From positions 1-22,636 of the IMG/VR virus record IMGVR_UViG_3300008999_000042: a stretch of 22,636 nucleotides of DNA; one strand, 5' to 3'. The first letter of the stretch is position 1; each line of letters opens with the position of its first letter. Shown in pieces: positions 1,826-22,636 of this stretch. This DNA is from a virus. Both the position numbers and the translations under genes were made by a program. The notes below the pieces were generated by a model. It ran no database searches. It had not been told where the DNA came from and saw only the letters and a program-made list of their open reading frames with translations.

Positions 1826-3507
1826 AAGATTGGGAAGTTAATCCCGACAATTATGCAAAGGACGATACTGGAGAGTTTATACTAAAGGTTGATGGGACTC
1901 CGCGCAAAAAGTCAGGAAGAGCTAAAGGATCTAAGGGAAGAGGATATACATATCATTCTCAAACTAAAGCTAAAATGGCTGCAAAGAAACAAGTAAAAGA
2001 AAAAGAAAAGAAACTTAAAGCAGCACAGAATAAAGTCGATAGTTATAAAAAGGCTATCAGTAGCACCAAGAAAACTTTAAATAAATTAGACAACAAAGAA
2101 TCTTCTATCGAAGGTAAGATAATAGAAGATGTACAGTTAGACAGTTTACCTAGTGCATTAGCTCAAGAAGCTACAGATGATGTTATCTTTAAGGCTAACG
2201 AAGGGCCACAAGAAGACTTCCTTGCAGCGGGTGAAACAGACGTTCTGTACGGAGGAGCAGCCGGAGGTGGTAAATCCTACGCGATGCTCGTAGACCCTCT
2301 TAGATACGCTCACAGGGCGGCTCACAGGGGTTTGATTATTAGACGGTCTATGCCGGAACTCCGCGAGTTAATAGACAAGTCTAGAGAGTTATATCCTAAA
2401 GCTTTTCCGGGATGTAAGTATAAAGAAGTAGAAAAGCTTTGGACGTTTCCAAGCGGAGCTAAAATAGAGTTTGGATTCCTTGAGCGTGATGCGGATGTTT
2501 ACCGCTATCAGGGTCAAGCATATAGTTGGATAGGTTTTGATGAAATTACACACCTACCTACAGAATTTGCTTGGAATTACTTAGCATCACGATTACGTAC
2601 TACTGATCCTGAAATTGAAGTATATATGCGCTGCACAGCAAATCCGGGGGGTGCGGGAGCAACATGGGTTAAAAAGCGTTATATTGATGTAGCTCCACCC
2701 AACAGTTCTTTTTTAGGTAATGATGGATTAACCAGAAAGTTCATACCAGCACGATTACAAGACAATCCTTTTCTAGCAACAGATGGTAGATATGAAAAGA
2801 TGCTTCAGGCTTTGCCGCCTACACAGCGTCAACAACTGTTAGAAGGGAATTGGGATGTTGCCGAAGGTGCAGCATTCACAGAGTTTAATCCAATGAATCA
2901 TGTAATAACTCCTTTTGAGATTCCGTTACATTGGGAACGTGCAAAAGGAATTGACTATGGATATGCTTCAGAAAGTGCATGTGTATGGGGTACAGTTGAT
3001 CCTAGTGATGGAACTTTAATTATATATAGAGAACTATATAAAAAAGGTCTTTTAGGTACAGAGTTAGCTGATATGCTAATGAACATGGAACTAGAAGATC
3101 CTACAAGTGTTGCGGGAGTTTTAGACACAGCTTGCTGGAGTCGCACCGGAACAACAGGCCCGACAGTCGGAGAAACTCTTCAACGAGCAGGACATAAGTT
3201 AAGAAGAGCAGATAAGAACCGAATACAGGGCAAAATACAGATCCATGAATACTTGAAGTTGCAGCCAAGCGGTAGGCCACGCATTCAAATATTTAATACT
3301 TGCCCGAACCTGATACGCGAACTACAAAGTATTCCTCTGGATAAAACAAATCCTGAAGATGTTAATACACATGCTCCTGATCACGCATATGATGCTTTAA
3401 GATACTTGATCATGTCTAGACCTCGTATAAACGATACTTTACAACAGATGCGACAGTTTCAACGAGAACAACATTTCAGACCTTTAGACACAACTTTTGG
3501 ATACTAA
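1822..3507 (+). CDS. Terminase large subunit (TerL)
   Basis: The ATPase-nuclease packages DNA into the prohead by docking on the portal. Of 561 residues, the ATPase shows Walker A GGAAGGGKS (144-152), Walker B WIGFDE (236-241) and a coupling motif TANPGG (272-277). The RNase H-like nuclease shows candidate acidic residues D378 (GIDYG), D435 (VLDT) and D520/D524 (HAPDHAYDALRY). Before the ATPase there is an extension of about 120 residues that is not part of the core. It contains a basic Gly-rich GRAKGSKGRG (32-41) and a Lys/Glu/Ala-rich likely coiled coil (about 50-92). The start overlaps the preceding stop (ATGA), which gives translational coupling in place of a good ribosome site. Function is certain; the role of the extension is unknown. 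Confidence 0.95.
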   Translation: MKDWEVNPDNYAKDDTGEFILKVDGTPRKKSGRAKGSKGRGYTYHSQTKAKMAAKKQVKEKEKKLKAAQNKVDSYKKAISSTKKTLNKLDNKESSIEGKIIEDVQLDSLPSALAQEATDDVIFKANEGPQEDFLAAGETDVLYGGAAGGGKSYAMLVDPLRYAHRAAHRGLIIRRSMPELRELIDKSRELYPKAFPGCKYKEVEKLWTFPSGAKIEFGFLERDADVYRYQGQAYSWIGFDEITHLPTEFAWNYLASRLRTTDPEIEVYMRCTANPGGAGATWVKKRYIDVAPPNSSFLGNDGLTRKFIPARLQDNPFLATDGRYEKMLQALPPTQRQQLLEGNWDVAEGAAFTEFNPMNHVITPFEIPLHWERAKGIDYGYASESACVWGTVDPSDGTLIIYRELYKKGLLGTELADMLMNMELEDPTSVAGVLDTACWSRTGTTGPTVGETLQRAGHKLRRADKNRIQGKIQIHEYLKLQPSGRPRIQIFNTCPNLIRELQSIPLDKTNPEDVNTHAPDHAYDALRYLIMSRPRINDTLQQMRQFQREQHFRPLDTTFGY

Positions 3508-3508
3508 T

Positions 3509-3967
3509 ATGAACGGAAAAAAGAAATTAAAATATAATAATGGTGGTCTAGTAGCTCAAAAACAATTTGGGAATGTGGGTTCTTTAGTAGCTCAAGCATC
3601 AGGTGATCAAGGATTTAGATCAGGAAGTGTTACAGGAAATTTAAGAAAAGGAAGTGCTGCTGTATCAGCTACTAAATTTAAAGACTCTGCTGGATTTAAA
3701 TCAGGAAGTATGACAGGAAGTTTAAGAAAAGGAAGTGCTGTTGTATCAGCTAGTAAATATAAAGACTCTGCTGGTGTTCGTAACAAGAACATTAGTATAG
3801 AAAAACAATTAAAAAATAAGTCTTCTGTAGGTGCAAACAAATCAGCATATGGTATGGGAGCTTCTTATAATAAACAACTAAAAAGCGGCTTTAATTTAAG
3901 AGTAGAAGCACATAAAGATGGACGAGGCCAATTATCTGGCAGTATGTCTATTTCTAAGCCACTTTAA
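3509..3967 (+). CDS. Gly/Ser/Lys-rich repeat protein between TerL and portal
   Basis: This 152-aa protein starts at the ATG one base after the terL stop; a TTG at 3497 in frame is less likely. It begins MNGKKKLKYNNGGLV, a Lys-rich tag followed by NNGG that I have seen at the start of small marine-phage virion proteins. Residues 35-61 and 62-88 are two tandem 27-residue units of the form GF(R/K)SGS(V/M)TG(N/S)LRKGSA, then (A/V)VSA(T/S)K(F/Y)KDSA. The last part, GASYNKQLKSGFNLRVEAHK, reads like antiparallel beta strands. No known domain is recognised. Basic composition and position suggest a minor virion or DNA-associated protein, possibly beta-structured. The function is inferred only from place. 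Confidence 0.7.
   Translation: MNGKKKLKYNNGGLVAQKQFGNVGSLVAQASGDQGFRSGSVTGNLRKGSAAVSATKFKDSAGFKSGSMTGSLRKGSAVVSASKYKDSAGVRNKNISIEKQLKNKSSVGANKSAYGMGASYNKQLKSGFNLRVEAHKDGRGQLSGSMSISKPL
3611..3772 (+). repeat. Two tandem 81-bp coding repeats
   Basis: Bases 3611-3691 and 3692-3772 are adjacent copies of the same 27-codon unit, similar in both DNA and protein (for example TTAAGAAAAGGAAGTGCTG occurs in both). High DNA similarity points to a fairly recent tandem duplication or ongoing homogenisation, so copy number may vary between related phages. Confidence 0.8.
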
Positions 3968-6220: not shown

Positions 6221-7837
6221 ATGAAAATACCTAAAAAGTCAGCTAAGAAAGTTTTAAGTTTGTTATCTAAACTTTCTGATAAAGAAGTTGCTGAAGCAGG
6301 TGCTAAAGCATCAACGACAAAAAAGAATAAAGTAGATGCTGAACGTATACGCGAAGCTTTAGAAGAACGTCTAGCTGATAATCCTCAGTATTTAGATACT
6401 TTAAGTGATGATGAATATATAGATCTAATGGATGCTCTTCCTGAAAAAGAGCGTTTAAAAATGTTAGGTGATGACTATGGCGTTGAAATAGCTGAGTCTC
6501 AAGAAGGTATGATGACTTCTATGACACCTAAAGAAGCAGCAAACAGTTTAGAACTATTTACAGGTGCTTCCGAAGTTTCTCAGTATTTAAATACATTAGA
6601 CGCTAAAGGTCTTAAAGAGTTTAAAGAGAATGTAAATGAAGCAGATGTAGATCTATATGGCCCTGCCTTAGATCGTTTAGAATCTACTGGCCCTAGAGTA
6701 GTTAAAGCTGAAGGTGGCTCTATGTTAGTACCACCAGAGCGTGAAGAATATAGCAAGGGCGGTAGAGTTGGCGAGTTAATTGTTAGCATGTTGCGTAAGA
6801 ATGTTAAGCAAGGCAAGAAGCCAACACGCAAACAAATAGATACTGCTGTAGTTGAAACAAAAGAAACGTATCCTAATTTAATTAAAAAGCTAACTAAAGA
6901 AAATAAAGAAGACGAAAAGAGTTTACGGTTTTTTGAAAACTATGCTACAGGTGGTGGCGGTAAAACTGATTTAGATTCAATTATTGCAAGTCTTAAAGAT
7001 AATGCAACTGAAAGCCAAGAAGCTACAAAACCTTTAGTACGGAAACAAAAAACTTATCGTAGTGATATGGCTAAAAATACTGCGGGTACAGCAGGTGTAA
7101 CAATGTTGTTACTAGAAGGCCCAGAAGCAGTTAAAGATGTATATGAAAGTTTAACTGAAAGCAAACGTGAAAAGTTTGAAAGTGCATTTAGCGAAGCTCA
7201 CAATGCAGGAGAAAATACTTTTATGTTTGAAGGTAGCGAATATACTACAGATGTAGCTAAAGGAAGAGAAGCTAAAGCTGAAGGTGGTTCAATGCTACTG
7301 CCCCCAGAAATACAAGATACTTATGACAATATTCCAGAAGAAGAAAAAGAAGCGGCTAAAAAGTCACAGCTTCCTGACGCTGAAATGGAAAATAACTATT
7401 TGCAATTTATACTTGACGAGTCTTTAGAAGAAGACGATCAAGATTATTTAATGGACGTTTTAGAACAAGATGAACGTCTAAGCAGCATCTTTGATCAAGT
7501 TATGGATGTTGCAGGAGAATTCTCAGGTGAAGGGGAAGTAGATGGCCCCGGAACTGGAGTATCAGATTCGATACCCGCAAGGTTATCGGATGGTGAATTT
7601 GTTTTCACCAGAAAGGCTACTGATCAACTAGGCGCGGAACAGCTACAAACTATGATGGACGATGCTGAACGTGCTTATGACGGTGGTTTAATGAAAAAAG
7701 CATTTGGTGGTATTGCTTATAATCCTATGGGAAATGGTGAAATGTCTAATAGGATTACTGAGGATGAACTTACGGAAGAAGAAATTAAGCGACAAATGAT
7801 TAGTTCTAACCGTATGCCAAGTGTAACCCCACGATAA
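6221..7837 (+). CDS. Probable virion protein with AEGGSML and DSIPA..GEF motifs
   Basis: This 538-aa acidic protein has a GAGGA ribosome site seven bases before its start. The N-terminal 30 residues are basic (MKIPKKSAKKVLSLLSKLSD). The motif KAEGGSMLxPPE occurs twice, near residues 162 and 352. Near 441-475 is GPGTGVSDSIPARLSDGEFV, a motif I know from many marine-phage structural and tail-associated proteins. It is followed by a helical segment and AYDGGLMKKAFGGIAYNP. The Gly-Gly tags split otherwise helical, Glu-rich stretches. It lies between portal and scaffold, so it is probably a head or portal-associated virion component. No enzymatic motif is seen. The structural role is inferred from motif and context. 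Confidence 0.7.
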   Translation: MKIPKKSAKKVLSLLSKLSDKEVAEAGAKASTTKKNKVDAERIREALEERLADNPQYLDTLSDDEYIDLMDALPEKERLKMLGDDYGVEIAESQEGMMTSMTPKEAANSLELFTGASEVSQYLNTLDAKGLKEFKENVNEADVDLYGPALDRLESTGPRVVKAEGGSMLVPPEREEYSKGGRVGELIVSMLRKNVKQGKKPTRKQIDTAVVETKETYPNLIKKLTKENKEDEKSLRFFENYATGGGGKTDLDSIIASLKDNATESQEATKPLVRKQKTYRSDMAKNTAGTAGVTMLLLEGPEAVKDVYESLTESKREKFESAFSEAHNAGENTFMFEGSEYTTDVAKGREAKAEGGSMLLPPEIQDTYDNIPEEEKEAAKKSQLPDAEMENNYLQFILDESLEEDDQDYLMDVLEQDERLSSIFDQVMDVAGEFSGEGEVDGPGTGVSDSIPARLSDGEFVFTRKATDQLGAEQLQTMMDDAERAYDGGLMKKAFGGIAYNPMGNGEMSNRITEDELTEEEIKRQMISSNRMPSVTPR

Positions 7838-15458: not shown

Positions 15459-16000
15459 TGACTCTACCAACTTCAGGCGCGATTAGTCTTAATCAAATGC
15501 ACGTTGAAGCTGGTGGACAGTCTGGCACAATTGTAAGTCTAAACGACAGCGATGTGCGTTCCCTAATAGGAAAAGCTAGTGGGGCTACTTCCAGTTTTTC
15601 CCAATTCTATGGGGCCAGTAACCTGCTAGATACTCAGACTGTAACAGTCGGCTACCTAGCCCCATCCTTGTACACGTTTCAGACAAGGGGCTTTGACTCA
15701 ACTTTATCAGTAGGTTCTATTTCAGATGGAACACTGAACCCAGTAAGTAACGCCTCAATCGTCATATTAGCTTGGCTGGGTGCTAACAGCACCGGATCAA
15801 GTGTACTCAACCGGGTGTATCTAACCGTAAGTGGGGTAAGAGCTAATAGTGGATGGACAAGTATGAAAGTAGGATCAACAACCTACACCAGAACATCAGC
15901 AACTTATTCAAACAATAGTACGGTAACTAACTGGTCGTGGTCAACTACAAGTAGTCCGTTCGGATCAACCGGATCAAGTGTTGCAGTGGAGTTCTCATAA
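15458..16000 (+). CDS. Tail fibre-associated/receptor-binding tip protein
   Basis: This 180-aa protein begins MTLPTSGAISLNQMHVEAGG, then SLNDSDVRSLIGKASGATSS and FSQFYGAS. This N-terminal module occurs at the start of many phage tail-tip proteins (the 'PTSGAISLxxVxxE...SLNDxxVRxLxG' pattern). The rest is Ser/Thr/Gly-rich beta sequence (VYLTVSGVRANSGWTSMKVG), probably the variable receptor- or glycan-binding part. It follows the fibre with overlapping stop and start and ends overlapping the next gene by one base, so the three form a coupled host-recognition cassette. It has the higher-GC codon use of the fibre C-terminus, unlike the nozzle gene. The specific receptor is unknown. Confidence 0.72.
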   Translation: MTLPTSGAISLNQMHVEAGGQSGTIVSLNDSDVRSLIGKASGATSSFSQFYGASNLLDTQTVTVGYLAPSLYTFQTRGFDSTLSVGSISDGTLNPVSNASIVILAWLGANSTGSSVLNRVYLTVSGVRANSGWTSMKVGSTTYTRTSATYSNNSTVTNWSWSTTSSPFGSTGSSVAVEFS

Positions 16001-16788
16001 TGGAAAGATTATATACAAAAAAAACAGACGAAATGGAATCAGATACAGAGTTCGCCTGTGTAGCTAAGGAAAATCTGTACATTGAAGTACCCATAGGTAA
16101 CAGAACTGAGGCTGAAGTACAGCTTGCTATTGACGACGCGCTTTTGCATACAGCGTTGAGCAAGTTTAAACCAGTCCAATGTAGAGATGATGTCTACTGT
16201 GACAAGCAGATAGTTCGTCAGGACTACTCTACTGGTACGACAGAGGCGCAATTGATGGCTGAAGAACTACAGGCGAGCTTTCCTGACTATCAGGATTGGT
16301 TAAGGTGGGAGTTCAATATCATAGGAAGGTATACCCCATACAGGGAGCCATATGCTAACGGTGGTTTGAGCTTCTACAACTTCGGACAGGTTCCTAGTGA
16401 AAAGCTATTACTTGAATTTGGAACATCTTACCCAACCACAAACCTTATGGATTGGCATGGTTTCAAGTTTGATTCTGAAACTAAGGAAATAATGCTCAAA
16501 GTAGTTTTTAAACTGTACGATGGTGAAACTCCTGACCTACCATACAACGATGGTAACTTCTATGCCGCCACTCACAGTCAGGACGGAACCACTAGCGACT
16601 GGGTGGATTACTACGCATACGCCACACCTAAGCTCATACGTGAGTTTTGCGCTGATAAAGGATTGTCGTATCCATTACCACCAACCACACACACGGACTG
16701 TGACGTTGTATGGTGCTGGGGCTTTGTGTTTAACAAAGACACTTTAGAGTATGGGCCTGTTAAAGCTTATGCTAGATATAATTTATAA
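16000..16788 (+). CDS. Unknown protein in the fibre cassette
   Basis: This 262-aa soluble-looking protein starts in the stop of the previous gene (TAATG). GGAG lies eight bases upstream. I recognise no domain. Visible traits are an acidic start (MERLYTKKTDEMESDTEFAC), several cysteines (including CRDDVYC), and many aromatic residues (DWLRWEF, GGLSFYNFG, DWVDYYAYATP). The last third contains DCDVVWCWGFVFN. There is no signal peptide or membrane segment. Its place after two fibre proteins and its shared composition suggest a fibre assembly chaperone or an additional receptor-binding or baseplate-like part. Genes at this spot in other phages often exchange together with the fibre. The function is not known. 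Confidence 0.6.
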   Translation: MERLYTKKTDEMESDTEFACVAKENLYIEVPIGNRTEAEVQLAIDDALLHTALSKFKPVQCRDDVYCDKQIVRQDYSTGTTEAQLMAEELQASFPDYQDWLRWEFNIIGRYTPYREPYANGGLSFYNFGQVPSEKLLLEFGTSYPTTNLMDWHGFKFDSETKEIMLKVVFKLYDGETPDLPYNDGNFYAATHSQDGTTSDWVDYYAYATPKLIREFCADKGLSYPLPPTTHTDCDVVWCWGFVFNKDTLEYGPVKAYARYNL

Positions 16789-17433: not shown

Positions 17434-20121
17434 ATGAGCAAAAAAAGAAATAAAAGAAATACTAAAAAAGTATTAAAATCTCTTCAAGCTAAAAGAGCAG
17501 CTTATCATAGTGGGGGACATAACTATGCAGGGCGTATGGGCTGGCAACCACACAATCCAAAACTTGGATCGCATAATCAGCCTACAGGTGGTGGAAGTAC
17601 TTCAACAACTGCAAAAACTGCAACAGGCAAGCCACCTACACCAAAGTTAAAAAGACCTAGTGGTAGCCCCTATAGTTTTGTAAGAACGTTTGATGCAAAA
17701 AAAGGTGTTGAATCAGCTATAGATCCTAGCGCATCTGCGGCTGAACAAGGCTTTACAACAGGTTCTGAAATTCAACAACTAGATGCAGGAACACCTGTAA
17801 CTACTGATGGTGTTCAAGCCCCTACAATGGCTCCTGCTGCTCAAGGAGATGTTACTTTAGGTGAAGCTGTACAACCTGTTGAAGCTTCTACATTTACAGC
17901 ACAAAAAGCTGAAGCTACTGCACCTACTCAAGCTGCTCAAGGCACAGTATCAACAATTGCTGAAGCTGCTGGGCCTACATTAACTGAAAGAGCTACTGCT
18001 GCTCAACGAGACACAGAGCAAGAACAAGCTTCTTTAGCATCTGCTCAAGATTATGAAATTAGTGACGGTGCATATGTTGATGCTGTTACAGGTAAAGTTA
18101 CAGACATTGCTCCTACAAAAGAAGCAGAATTTAAACAACGCGATGCTATTACAGATAATACTGTTTCATCAGGAGAAGCATCTAAAATTGTTGAGTCTGT
18201 TGGTTTTGAAGCTGCATCTAGAAGAGCCGTTACGGGCGAAGCCGCTAAAGGTGCAGCAGCAGAAATGGTTGCAGCCGTAGGAAACATTCCTAAAGAAATA
18301 ACAGCAGCTATTGTTGAAGACCCTGCCTCAGTAGAAGCAGCTATAGATACACAGCCTGTTGAAGTTAAAGCAGCCATTGCAGCATTACCAACTGAAGCTT
18401 TAGTATCTTCTCAAATGGAAGGTCTTTTAGCTTCTATGGATGATGGAGAAGTTCCTGTTTGGGCTAGGCCAGCGGTACAACAAGTAAACTCAATGCTTGC
18501 TAAACGAGGTCTTTCTTCATCAACAGTAGGAAGGGATTCGTTATTTAATGCTATTATTCAAACTGCTATGCCTATTGCTCAAAGCAATGCTCAAGCTCTT
18601 CAGACTAGAGCAGCACAAAATTTAAGTAATGAGCAACAAGCTAACTTAGCACAGTCTACGGCTGACATGCAGTTAAAGCTGGCTAATTTAGCTAATGAAC
18701 AAACAGCATCATCTCAAACAGCACAGATGGCACAGCAGATGGCTACACTGCAAAGCCAGTTTAAACAAGACGCTGTTATGACTACTGCACAGCAACAGCA
18801 ACAAACTGCTATGCAAAACTTGCAAAATCGTCAGCAAGCTTCTGTATTAAATGTTCAGAATCAACAAGCTACAAATTCACAAAATTTAGGTAATGAACAG
18901 CAAATAGAACTTGCTAATCTTTCATACTTAAATGCTAGTGCATCTGAAAACATGTCAGCGGAACAACAAACACGCTTAGTTCAAATGCAAACTGCCGCAG
19001 ACTTTTTAGCTAAGAATGCTGCGTTTAAACAGCAAATGGATTTAGCAAATTTAAGCAACGATCAACAAACAAGACTTGCAAATCTTTCTGCACTTAATCA
19101 AGCAAGTGCTGATAATCTAAATGCAGAACAACAAACTGAGTTAGCTAATCTTAATGCTACGTTGCAAACTAATTTAACTCAAGGTAAAATTGCAGAGTCA
19201 ATGGGGCTTGCTCAGTTAAATGTAGATCAACAACGGGCAGTACAAAATGCAGCAATGGTTGCTAATGTTGATTTAAATAAGTTTAATGCTGAACAGCAAG
19301 TAGAATTAGCAAACAGTAAGTTTATGCAGTCTATGACTATGGCTGACTTCAATGCTTCACAACAAGCAGCGATGCAGAATGCCACAACTCTTGCAGCAAT
19401 GGATATGGCTACAGCCGACCAAGCTACTAAACTAGCTATTACTAACGCTCAAAACTTTTTAAGTATGGACATGGCTAACTTAAACAATGAACAGCAAGCA
19501 ACTGTTTTAGATCAGCAACAGCAGCAACAGCGTTTGTTATCTGATGCGGCTGCTGCAAATGCTTCTTTACAGTTTAATGCTACGTCTGAAAATCAAACTA
19601 ATCAGTTTATGGCAAGTCTAGCAAGCTCTATGGAACAGTTTAATTCAACTCAATCTAATGCTATGGCACAGTTCAACACTGCTGAAACTAATAGACAAGC
19701 AGCTATAGAAGCAGGGAATGAACTACAAGCTGAACAAATTACTGCTCAATTAGAAGTAGATGTTGCTAAATACAATGAACAGGTTGAATTACAGCGTGAT
19801 ACTTGGAATGCTCAAAATGCTCAAGCAATTGAACAATCTAATATTGCATGGCGTAGATCTGCTAACACCGCAGAAACTGCGGCTATTAATGCAGCTAATC
19901 AACAGAATGTTCAAAACGCATATAACTTAACAGCGTTAGAGCAAGCTCAAATCTGGCAGCAATATCGTGATGAAGCATCTTATATTAGACAATCATATGA
20001 AAATGAAGAAAACAGAAAGACACAGCTTTATGCTACAGCTATTGGTAATGAAGCAGGAGCAACTAAAGACAGTAGAACATCAAGCAGTTCTTTAGTTTCT
20101 ATGGTTAATGGGATTATATAG
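17434..20121 (+). CDS. Gln/Asn/Ala-rich internal or ejection protein with 11-residue repeats
   Basis: The 895-aa protein has a basic N-terminus (MSKKRNKRNTKKVLKSLQAK), a Pro/Thr/Ala-rich middle to about residue 350, and then RGLSSSTVGRDSLFNAII (358 on), a short motif I recall from similar marine-phage proteins. Residues about 390-700 are a repeat of the type (N)(E/D)QQxxLANLxxx. The acidic-QQ anchors fall at 400, 422, 488, 510, 543, 565, 598, 620 and 686, all separated by multiples of 11. The end is helical (IWQQYRDEASYIRQSYENEE). There is no enzyme motif, signal peptide or membrane segment. It precedes other virion-type genes, so it is probably an internal virion or ejection protein forming a long helix. 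The family function is not established to my knowledge. Confidence 0.7.
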   Translation: MSKKRNKRNTKKVLKSLQAKRAAYHSGGHNYAGRMGWQPHNPKLGSHNQPTGGGSTSTTAKTATGKPPTPKLKRPSGSPYSFVRTFDAKKGVESAIDPSASAAEQGFTTGSEIQQLDAGTPVTTDGVQAPTMAPAAQGDVTLGEAVQPVEASTFTAQKAEATAPTQAAQGTVSTIAEAAGPTLTERATAAQRDTEQEQASLASAQDYEISDGAYVDAVTGKVTDIAPTKEAEFKQRDAITDNTVSSGEASKIVESVGFEAASRRAVTGEAAKGAAAEMVAAVGNIPKEITAAIVEDPASVEAAIDTQPVEVKAAIAALPTEALVSSQMEGLLASMDDGEVPVWARPAVQQVNSMLAKRGLSSSTVGRDSLFNAIIQTAMPIAQSNAQALQTRAAQNLSNEQQANLAQSTADMQLKLANLANEQTASSQTAQMAQQMATLQSQFKQDAVMTTAQQQQQTAMQNLQNRQQASVLNVQNQQATNSQNLGNEQQIELANLSYLNASASENMSAEQQTRLVQMQTAADFLAKNAAFKQQMDLANLSNDQQTRLANLSALNQASADNLNAEQQTELANLNATLQTNLTQGKIAESMGLAQLNVDQQRAVQNAAMVANVDLNKFNAEQQVELANSKFMQSMTMADFNASQQAAMQNATTLAAMDMATADQATKLAITNAQNFLSMDMANLNNEQQATVLDQQQQQQRLLSDAAAANASLQFNATSENQTNQFMASLASSMEQFNSTQSNAMAQFNTAETNRQAAIEAGNELQAEQITAQLEVDVAKYNEQVELQRDTWNAQNAQAIEQSNIAWRRSANTAETAAINAANQQNVQNAYNLTALEQAQIWQQYRDEASYIRQSYENEENRKTQLYATAIGNEAGATKDSRTSSSSLVSMVNGII
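18631..19521 (+). repeat. Phase-locked 11-residue (33-base) coding repeat
   Basis: Within the 895-aa protein, residue 400 onwards repeats with an 11-residue period. E/D (or K/S) followed by QQ or Q occurs at residues 400, 422, 488, 510, 532, 543, 565, 598, 620, 642 and 686, all equal modulo 11. LANL commonly follows three residues later. The DNA copies are highly diverged, so selection acts on the protein pattern. Confidence 0.8.
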
Positions 20122-20134
20122 AGGATAGTACAAA

Positions 20135-21283
20135 ATGGGACTTATTTCAAAACTTTTTAAAGGCGTTAAAAAAGTAGTAAAGAAAATAGGCAAAGGTATT
20201 AAAAGTGCTTTTAAGTCTGTTGGTAAATTTATGGGGAAGCTAGGCATTATTGGTCAAATTGGTTTAGGGCTTTTAATGCCGGGAATAGGCTCAATGTTCG
20301 GAAAGTTTGCTGGTGCTTTAATAGGCACTGGCGGCACAGTAGCTACTGCGGCAGGAAACTTTATTAATGCCGCACTAAATATAGGTACTAAAGTAGGTAA
20401 TGTTTTTAGTAGTATTACAAAAGGCGTTACAAATGTTGTTGGTGAAGTTGTTGGTGCTGCCGCAAATCAACTTGGTTTAGCTAATCCTATAAAAAACTTT
20501 ACAGGTGCTTTAGGTATTAATAAAGGAAATGGTTGGAATGTAGCAGGTAAAGGCTTTAACTCTGTTATGGACACAGTTTCTAATGCAGGTACTGATCTCT
20601 TATCAAAAGGTCAAGACCTGTTTAGCATGGACACACTTACAGGTAAACACGCAAGCGTATCTAAATACTTAGATGAATTAAAAGTTAAGCGAGATGCTTT
20701 AGTTCCTGATCTTAATGTGTCAGCCGAAATGGATTCGGTCACTAATGAATTTACAGGTAAACTTGTTGAAACACCCGATATAGTTCTTGAAGATTCTATG
20801 GCAAAAGCTAAAGCTTTAGCAACAGGGCCGAACTTAACAGGTGTAGAAAACATGTCTCGAGGCTTGGATGGGACAATAGCTTCTAATACAGCACAAATGT
20901 CAACCGTTGCTGATGGAGTAACTAATGTAGCTACTGAACCAAAAAGTTTACTTAGCAAAGCTAGTGACTTTGTAGTAGAAAAGGCGGGTGACGCTAGAGT
21001 AAAACTTGGAGAAGCTCTTACAGATGCACCTTCTAAATTTGTAAGTACAGCAGTAACAACCGCAGGGCAAAAAGCAGGAGGAGGGATTCCTGATGTTAAT
21101 TATACTACAAATGTAGCTTCAGTTGCTTCTATGCCTACATCACTGTCTATCGGATCAGGTGATTATGCAGGAGATGTTAATTTAAATGCTTACATGGACA
21201 ACACTAACTACATGAATGCTTCTCCTTATGGACACACAGCAGCTATATATAACTACGGTCAAAGTATGAGAGGAGTAGGCTAA
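20135..21283 (+). CDS. Probable internal virion protein with cationic amphipathic N-terminus
   Basis: This 382-aa protein begins MGLISKLFKGVKKVVKKIGK, then GIKSAFKSVGKFMGKLGIIG. The Lys/Phe/Val/Gly pattern has the look of a membrane-active amphipathic helix. It leads into a hydrophobic Gly-rich stretch (QIGLGLLMPGIGSMFGKFAG, about 41-60) and Ala/Gly/Val sequence to about residue 120. The remainder is soluble and helical. GAGGA lies nine bases before the start. I recall similar N-termini in marine podovirus proteins lying beside internal virion proteins. The likely job is ejection: inserting in or crossing the host membrane to help DNA entry. That is inferred from composition and neighbours; no direct family assignment is made. 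Confidence 0.65.
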   Translation: MGLISKLFKGVKKVVKKIGKGIKSAFKSVGKFMGKLGIIGQIGLGLLMPGIGSMFGKFAGALIGTGGTVATAAGNFINAALNIGTKVGNVFSSITKGVTNVVGEVVGAAANQLGLANPIKNFTGALGINKGNGWNVAGKGFNSVMDTVSNAGTDLLSKGQDLFSMDTLTGKHASVSKYLDELKVKRDALVPDLNVSAEMDSVTNEFTGKLVETPDIVLEDSMAKAKALATGPNLTGVENMSRGLDGTIASNTAQMSTVADGVTNVATEPKSLLSKASDFVVEKAGDARVKLGEALTDAPSKFVSTAVTTAGQKAGGGIPDVNYTTNVASVASMPTSLSIGSGDYAGDVNLNAYMDNTNYMNASPYGHTAAIYNYGQSMRGVG

Positions 21284-21285
21284 TA

Positions 21286-21888
21286 ATGGAAGAAGCATAT
21301 CTTAAACTACAACAAAAAGGAGGCCGACCTATTGCGGGTCAGTCTTTAACAAACGATCCCGAAAACCCTGCTCCGTTTGAAAAGCAACCAGAATATACAA
21401 GTGTTCACCAAGCTTCTGAAGTATTGTTTGAAAAAATGCTACAAAAAGAAGTATACATCCCGCTGATGCAAGCGGTTGAAAGTGGAACACCTGTTATGGA
21501 AATTGTTCAGGTAATCTTGTTTAAAGGTTTTACAGAAGGCAAGTGGAATCCTGACTTGTTAATAATGTTAATTGAGCCTGTTGCATATATGATTATAGCT
21601 TTAGCAGAACGCTTAGACATTGACTTTGTAGTTTATGAAGACGAAGAACAAGATGAAATAGAAGACGAACAAAACTTTGGAACTCAGTTTGAAGAGTTAG
21701 CAATGCAGAAAATAGCAAAAACTTCTGCTCCTCTTAAAGTTCCTGCTGGTGTAATTAGTAATGAAGTGCTTTCTAAGATTGAAGCTATACCCGAAAATAG
21801 TTTAGAAGAAACACAGGATGAACCAGTACCTGAACCAACACCTGAACCAATGCAGCAACCTGCAAGCTTGTTAGCTGCTGCTCAATAA
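21286..21888 (+). CDS. Conserved marine-phage protein, probable virion component
   Basis: This 200-aa acidic protein begins MEEAYLKLQQKGGRPIAGQS and continues LTNDPENPAPFEKQPEYTSV. A helical core follows: ASEVLFEKMLQKEVYIPLMQ, VMEIVQVILFKGFTEGKWNP and DLLIMLIEPVAYMIIALAER. I recognise this core from conserved proteins of marine podoviruses and cyanophages, usually called hypothetical or virion proteins. The C-terminal 75 residues are acidic and Pro-rich (EPVPEPTPEPMQQPAS). The hydrophobic stretch at about 88-110 could be a buried helix or a membrane contact. AGGAG is ten bases upstream, and the start is three bases after the previous stop. Structural or ejection role inferred. Confidence 0.68.
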   Translation: MEEAYLKLQQKGGRPIAGQSLTNDPENPAPFEKQPEYTSVHQASEVLFEKMLQKEVYIPLMQAVESGTPVMEIVQVILFKGFTEGKWNPDLLIMLIEPVAYMIIALAERLDIDFVVYEDEEQDEIEDEQNFGTQFEELAMQKIAKTSAPLKVPAGVISNEVLSKIEAIPENSLEETQDEPVPEPTPEPMQQPASLLAAAQ

Positions 21889-21900
21889 AAGGATATAATA

Positions 21901-22636
21901 ATGGCGATTGAAAATATAGGCGAGTCGTTGCTTTCTAATGTACGGCAAAGAAATGATAAAATTGCTCGTCAAACCAGAAAAGCAGAGCGTAAAGATGAAT
22001 TAAAAACTTTGGGTATGACTTTAGCTGTAGGTGTTGGTAACAAAATGTTAGCTGATAGAACAGCAGATTTTTTAAACAATGAACAAATTTTAGCTTCTAA
22101 TGTATTGTTTAAAAATGCTAGTTTAGCTAGGACACAAGCTGCCGATGAACAAAAAAAAATTGATCAGCATAAAGGAACAGCAGTAGACTTTTATAGAGAT
22201 CAAATGAAAACTGAATTTGAAACACAGTTTAAACTGCAACAAGATCCTGATGAAATAGGAACTAAGTTGTATGATGCAAAAATGTTTGACGAACTTACAA
22301 AGTTAGCAACAGCAAGGGCTGACGCACACAAAAACCTTTATGAATCTACTTTAAAAATTAAAGATGTTGACACTGTAAATGCTTCTATAGTAAAAGAAAT
22401 AAAATCAGCGCGTCCACAAAAAGTAGGAGATCTTATAACTTCAGGAATTGCAAATCTATTTACTGGGACTTCTAAGCAAGAAAGAGAACAAGCAGCTATA
22501 CAATCTATTATAAAAAATGATCCTAATAGAGAAAGAACTATTGCGCTTGCAAAAGAGTTTGAAAGAACTGGCAATGCAATTCTTGCTAAAAACTTTGCAG
22601 ATATGACTGTTGTAAAAACGCCTGAAGAAGAACGAT
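21901..22636 (+). CDS. Probable internal virion protein, 3' end cut by window edge
   Basis: An open frame of 245 codons begins MAIENIGESLLSNVRQRNDK and reaches the window end without a stop, so length and C-terminal domains are unknown. AAAGGA stands about seven bases before the ATG, twelve bases after the previous stop. The visible part is helical and Lys/Glu/Ala-rich, with one mildly hydrophobic stretch (LGMTLAVGVGNKMLADRTAD, near 40). There are no catalytic motifs so far. A large protein at this place in podoviruses is usually an internal virion or ejection protein, some of which carry a peptidoglycan-cleaving domain. The rest of the gene would show whether that holds here. Confidence 0.72.
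   Translation, partial: MAIENIGESLLSNVRQRNDKIARQTRKAERKDELKTLGMTLAVGVGNKMLADRTADFLNNEQILASNVLFKNASLARTQAADEQKKIDQHKGTAVDFYRDQMKTEFETQFKLQQDPDEIGTKLYDAKMFDELTKLATARADAHKNLYESTLKIKDVDTVNASIVKEIKSARPQKVGDLITSGIANLFTGTSKQEREQAAIQSIIKNDPNRERTIALAKEFERTGNAILAKNFADMTVVKTPEEER

Follow-up and report, generated by a model that had tools for sequence, protein, structure and literature searches.

A phage protein of probable ejection type: its hendecad rod varies by whole units and probably packs side by side as in the phiX174 tube

The window analysed here, a stretch of 22,636 nucleotides, is a fragment from an uncultured-virus record and carries a podovirus-type structural block, with genes for terminase (at 1822), portal (3979), major capsid (8857), tail proteins (10057 and 10829) and an S74 tail fibre (12435). 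Downstream of these, a plus-strand gene (17434..20121; the rod gene) encodes a protein of 895 amino acids that contains a long rod of 11-residue units, or hendecads, and has homologues in 203 loci. The next gene of the block (20135..21283, plus strand) encodes 382 aa with a Lys-rich amphipathic and then Gly/hydrophobic N-terminus and weak tape-measure-like matches; its product is, by these sequence features, a candidate membrane-acting ejection protein. It is followed by a 200-aa gene (21286..21888, plus strand), with a gene of ~165-200 aa near this place in most annotated relatives, and by a fourth block gene (21901..22635, plus strand) that is cut by the window end. At the homologous locus L004, the fourth gene is 418 aa long and is followed by a fifth and last block gene (L004:13738-18685) of at least 1648 aa, whose match to DUF6973, at 26.1 bits, falls slightly short of the curated cut-off of 27 bits.

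Elsewhere in the window, a 262-aa ORF without a PHROG match (16000-16788) lies after the tail fibre block and before the rod gene, and a 156-aa ORF (3497-3967) contains two imperfect repeats of ~35 residues (SGSMTGSLRKGSAVVSASKYKDSAG type) and has no family match. The C-terminal motif (DSIPARLSDGEFVFTRKATDQLG) of a 538-aa protein encoded between the portal and capsid genes (6221-7837) matches parts of PHROG families for endolysins and tape-measure proteins.

The 895-aa protein begins with an arm of variable length (residues 1-325; 17434..18408), most of which is of low confidence in the structural model. A conserved N-side helical domain (residues 326-387; 18409..18594) is defined by an anchor HMM and conserved alignment columns and carries the motif P.WA..A.......LA.RGL..S......NAI...ALPIAQ.NAQ. 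It leads into the rod, which comprises ~39 units of 11 residues (residues 388-816; 18595..19881), is rich in Q, N and A, lacks proline, and was delimited by autocorrelation, a profile register scan, unit composition, helix prediction and quantised length. A conserved C-side helical domain (residues 771-885; 19744..20088), also defined by an anchor HMM, overlaps predicted helices at residues 720-830 and 834-876, and its initial part is still in hendecad register. All of these features lie on the plus strand. The protein has no match above cut-off in either the Pfam or the PHROG scan. PDB sequence searches with it gave chance matches only, with no homologue of solved structure, and a Foldseek fold search likewise gave chance matches only, none of which reached E 0.001.

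An earlier note on this DNA had proposed an exact 11-residue register of glutamines in this protein, and the residues that it listed (400, 422, 488, 510, 532, 543, 565, 598, 620, 642 and 686) are all equal to 4 modulo 11. When isolated QQ pairs are counted, with poly-Q runs excluded, 12 of the 13 within residues 388-816 belong to a single class modulo 11 (binomial p ~4e-11, corrected for 11 classes); the sole exception is at residue 477. Identity autocorrelation over residues 390-700, which was run as a check on the periodicity, gave a z of 4.9 at lag 11, followed by 10.1, 4.2, 6.8 and 6.1 at lags 22, 33, 44 and 55, and all remaining lags up to 60 have z values of 1.5 or less. The Gln, Asn and hydrophobicity periodograms peak at 11 and its harmonics, and within residues 388-816 there is no heptad signal, with no power at 7 or 3.5. 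The register of the positional profile is constant from approximately residue 388 to 816 and is lost outside. Thus the register proposed in the earlier note stands, but its extent of 26 units over ~290 residues (400-696) was too small, and the helix of ~40 nm derived from it would instead measure ~64 nm if it were one straight helix. The observation that the DNA copies are diverged also holds, as there is no 33-nt tandem array scoring at least 30; direct repeats of 23-26 nt with 70-88% identity occur at spacings of 33n.

Homologues gathered from IMG/VR, a phage collection and GTDB contigs come from phages of SAR11, SAR116, Roseobacter, Rhizobium, Vibrio, Aeromonas and Pseudoalteromonas as well as from metagenomes. 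The best-covered matches among named phages are the Pelagibacter phages HTVC103P, HTVC104P and HTVC115P. Further named relatives include HMO-2011, Roseobacter CRP phages, Vibrio phage CHOED, Aeromonas phage MQM1, Pseudoalteromonas phage Slicky01, and Rhizobium/Sinorhizobium phages. In the sea, HMO-2011-type phages are considered one of the most abundant and most widespread groups of viruses (PMC9038755). In phage records with a CDS under the match, the rod gene is annotated as 'hypothetical protein' in nearly all cases, and once as 'huntingtin'.

Rod length was measured as the distance between the HMMs of the two flanking conserved domains (window residues 326-387 and 771-885), of which the N-side anchor was recognised in 197 and the C-side anchor in 196 of the first 200 loci. 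Roseobacter phage CRP-212, in which the N-side domain is unrecognised, was excluded from the length test. In all 203 measurable homologues, the flank-to-flank distance differs from that of the window protein by an exact multiple of 11 residues, and the register-breaking insertions that would have spoken against the repeat were sought among them and not found. The 17 length values are -275, -264, -253, -242, -209, -198, -187, -110, -88, -66, -11, 0, +11, +22, +33, +44 and +110 residues, and the family accordingly ranges from 14 to 49 hendecads, a 3.5-fold difference. The sample is not independent, with the classes -198, 0 and -110 together covering 164 loci, so it is the 17 distinct lengths that carry the evidence. 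With freely varying lengths, the probability that sixteen independent differences would all be multiples of 11 is ~11^-16. The N-terminal arm serves as a control: in 195 homologues it takes 130 distinct lengths, and these fall into every class modulo 11.

Small indels follow the same division. The rod is ungapped in 1247 of 1252 pairs of same-length representatives (mean identity 73%, down to 39%), whereas the 150-aa stretch just upstream of it has gaps in 328 of 435 pairs, mostly of one residue. Small indels therefore occur close by, and the rod does not tolerate them. For homologues that differ in rod length, gap sizes were also considered and set aside as uninformative, because gap placement within a repeat is ambiguous.

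AlphaFold2 modelling predicts that the rod of the window protein is an almost continuous helix (residues 367-503 and 720-830; mean pLDDT 54, with low pLDDT up to approximately residue 270). For the 460-aa CHOED homologue it predicts one helix of 155 residues (227-381), with block pLDDT up to 90 and a mean pLDDT of 62. The long helix anticipated in the earlier note is therefore predicted, as near-continuous, in both models, and their moderate confidence may be what is expected of a helix that needs partners. Prolines are absent from the rod in all 97 representatives (2245 units). Across the same 2245 units, positions 4 and 5 are Gln-rich and position 10 is Asn; positions 8 and 11 are Leu/Met/Ala and position 6 is Ala/Met/Val. 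Charges sit mainly at positions 3 and 7, and Lys makes up 2% of rod residues.

On an 11/3 helical wheel, the first harmonic of hydrophobicity is close to zero (0.04) and the second harmonic is strong. Charges point to 195 degrees, Q/N to 24 degrees, and the hydrophobic seams to 116 and 296 degrees, such that each unit has two hydrophobic seams on opposite flanks, with a Gln/Asn/Ser face on one side and the charges facing away from it. Across all length classes, the axis through the two seams stays within 96-123 degrees, and the charge direction is similar in most. The first harmonic is 0.19 or less in 13 of 14 classes, and reaches 0.34 in the lone CHOED sequence. As judged from this sequence pattern, the layout is that of a helix flanked by two others, as in a sheet or wide barrel, with polar uncharged residues on one face and charges on the other. 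Right-handed hendecad coiled coils likewise make three helical turns in 11 residues, but they have one hydrophobic core face where the rod has two lateral seams. The presence of two seams and no single hydrophobic face argues against both structures to which the period had initially been assigned, an ordinary right-handed coiled coil with a single core and a membrane-lying amphipathic helix, each of which needs one hydrophobic face.

A comparable design is found in protein H of phiX174, whose amide-lined tube is built on QKELTKMQLDN-type hendecads and which has been proposed to deliver the genome across the envelope (PMC7354561). H was the only outside hendecad protein scored against the rod profile, and a literature search for hendecads or 11-residue repeats in other phage proteins found H alone. 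Its three hendecads (taken from PMC7354561) fit the rod unit profile best in one phase, with p 2e-4 by residue shuffle and 0.022 by position permutation over 33 residues and with the phase chosen by best fit, while its heptad part does not fit (p 0.94). Both proteins have hendecads of the form Q-x-E-L/I-A-x-L/M-Q/N, with an amide-rich face opposite a charged face. On the wheel, the layout of the rod is in agreement with a putative lumen lined by amides, as in the decameric H barrel. The H hendecads, however, have a hydrophobic first harmonic that the rod lacks. H belongs to the Microviridae, which have ssDNA, and combines 3 hendecads, a kink and 11 heptads over 17 nm, whereas the rod family has 14-49 hendecads, no heptad signal, and belongs to tailed dsDNA phages. 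Searches against PDB chains (up to E 10) detected no sequence homology between the rod and H. The rod thus resembles H in design, an analogy that carries no evidence of descent.

In annotated relatives the rod gene opens a block whose genes include one of ~165-200 aa and one of ~300-930 aa, and whose last gene encodes ~820-1650 aa. The rod gene is part of a late block of virion genes downstream of the tail genes, together with large ejection-type genes, and its position next to probable ejection proteins, as first suspected, is borne out by gene order, which places it at the head of an ejection-type cassette. Podophage ejection proteins (T7 gp14/15/16; SU10 gp20-24) are likewise encoded in a block of virion genes that follows the tail genes and closes with a very large gene, and relatives of the rod gene share with these blocks a wall hydrolase nearby. 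In CRP-603, a Hydrolase_2 cell wall hydrolase occupies the place that corresponds to the 20135..21283 gene. In SU10, the five ejection proteins gp20-24 were shown to be part of the virion, and the genome release intermediate lacks them (PMC9509320). The T7 and SU10 ejection proteins, unlike the putative virion protein described here, are not known to contain a hendecad rod that varies by whole units, and no similarity in sequence between the rod protein and proteins of T7 or SU10 was found. A literature search returned no relevant virion proteomics for rod-bearing phages.

The homologue in CRP-3 matches PHROG 6121, 'virion structural protein', and the homologues of CRP-3, CRP-235, CRP-738 and CRP-212 end in S74-like domains. 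S74 is absent from the window protein and from the large majority of homologues. Outside this family, the best S74 matches of the CRP-3-type homologues include several annotated DNA ejection/injection proteins, and also tail spike and fibre proteins. One such protein, the 'DNA ejection protein' of Salmonella phage 7-11, shares the S74 C-terminus with the CRP-3-type homologues and likewise comes first in a block of five genes; unlike the rod protein, it has no hendecad periodicity. Kinship beyond S74 was considered and rejected, as there is no significant match outside that domain. The cassette layout, the Hydrolase_2 neighbour and the likeness to S74 and PHROG proteins make an ejection role of the rod protein likely.

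The reading that we prefer, with a probability of roughly one half, is that the product of the rod gene is a virion protein, part of the DNA-ejection cassette in HMO-2011-related podovirus-like phages, and that its hendecad helices associate laterally as a tube or sheath lined with amides. The variable arm and the conserved helical domain would be followed by one very long alpha-helical rod, each 11-residue unit of which makes three turns. The two seams of each unit would place copies side by side in register, with the amide groups turned inward and the charges outward. During infection, the resulting tube would lengthen the DNA path of the short tail and would work like the H-tube of phiX174. 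Because only whole-unit steps would keep the seams of every copy aligned, the rod could change length only by elevens. On this account we infer that the protein is carried in the virion, assembles into an oligomer with a lumen, takes part in ejection and contacts DNA. A bolder proposal, on which we are tentative and lean slightly towards doubt, is that this dsDNA phage ejection protein is an all-hendecad, amide-lined helical barrel that arose independently of the phiX174 H-tube and acts as a unit-counted DNA conduit or ruler of 14 to 49 units.

Rod length bears on where such a structure could lie. If each rod is one straight helix, predicted lengths run from ~23 to 81 nm across the family, the longest being that of locus L209. 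The Gram-negative envelope is shorter than 64-81 nm. Short rods, if straight, match the envelope width and long ones do not, and a tube confined to the periplasm is awkward for the long members unless it passes through tail and portal or is folded back. Among phages of host strain FZCC0040, CRP-3 and CRP-235 are at -264 and CRP-207 at -209; among SAR11 phages, HTVC033P is at -264 and HTVC104P at -110. Since rods of unequal length occur on one host strain, envelope width alone does not set the length, and a simple host-envelope ruler was rejected.

That rod length does not follow the host would also be compatible with an internal core, in which the rods would be bundled solidly, or arranged as a cage, inside the head along the axis of the portal, helping to order DNA and to hold the other ejection proteins without serving as a channel. 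Members too long for the envelope could fit along the head-portal-tail axis, and the position in the cassette is equally compatible with such a core. A solid core, however, would want one hydrophobic face, and the two-seam wheel with its polar uncharged and charged faces is better suited to packing around a lumen, so we consider an internal core unlikely.

It is more improbable still that the rod forms a trimeric stalk in an external tail fibre or spike and is folded with the aid of a C-terminal S74 chaperone. The rod gene does follow tail fibre genes, and the CRP-3, CRP-235, CRP-738 and CRP-212 homologues do have S74-like ends. Against this, most family members, including the window protein, have no such domain, the outside S74 matches include ejection as well as spike and fibre proteins, the downstream block is not a fibre block, and a trimer would need the one hydrophobic core face that is absent from the rod.

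We give very little credence to an amphipathic 11-mer helix lying on or coating a membrane, as in synuclein or apolipoproteins: the period is equal, the rod is Ala-rich and the product of the 20135 gene looks membrane-active, but the near-zero first harmonic and the scarcity of Lys fit poorly, and synuclein-like helices need no whole-unit length change. Just as improbable is that multiples of 11 merely record a DNA mutation mode (slippage or unequal exchange of 33-nt repeats) free of structural constraint. Units are presumably gained and lost via exchange between repeats, and the direct repeats at 33n spacings agree with this, but no 33-nt array is similar enough for slippage, and selection against other indels would still be needed, given that small indels are common upstream and missing from the rod in nearly all same-length pairs. 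Slippage was therefore rejected as a sufficient cause.

Relatives of the rod gene carry no functional name, in a group of phages that are mostly marine and short-tailed. A rod that changes by elevens only, and that differs in length among phages of one host strain, is a natural experiment that opens to direct test what determines how long a phage DNA-delivery device is. Should the barrel proposal be true, tailed dsDNA phages and phiX174 use one solution, an amide-lined helical tube.

Two further observations concern individual homologues. The longest rod (+110 residues, 10 extra units; L209:674-4423) is on a contig filed under a Sphingobacteriales MAG, which is probably a viral contig in the bin. 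A C-terminal module of ~80 aa (FCWVAREVYG..D.RW..FR.W....APKWL..LY.KHGE..AKFI..KP..KW...K.MD), with no Pfam or PHROG match, occurs in HMO-2011 (L082:10960-13077) and in most homologues of the -198 class; it is present or absent among otherwise similar homologues, and by this sequence distribution it looks like a swapped module.
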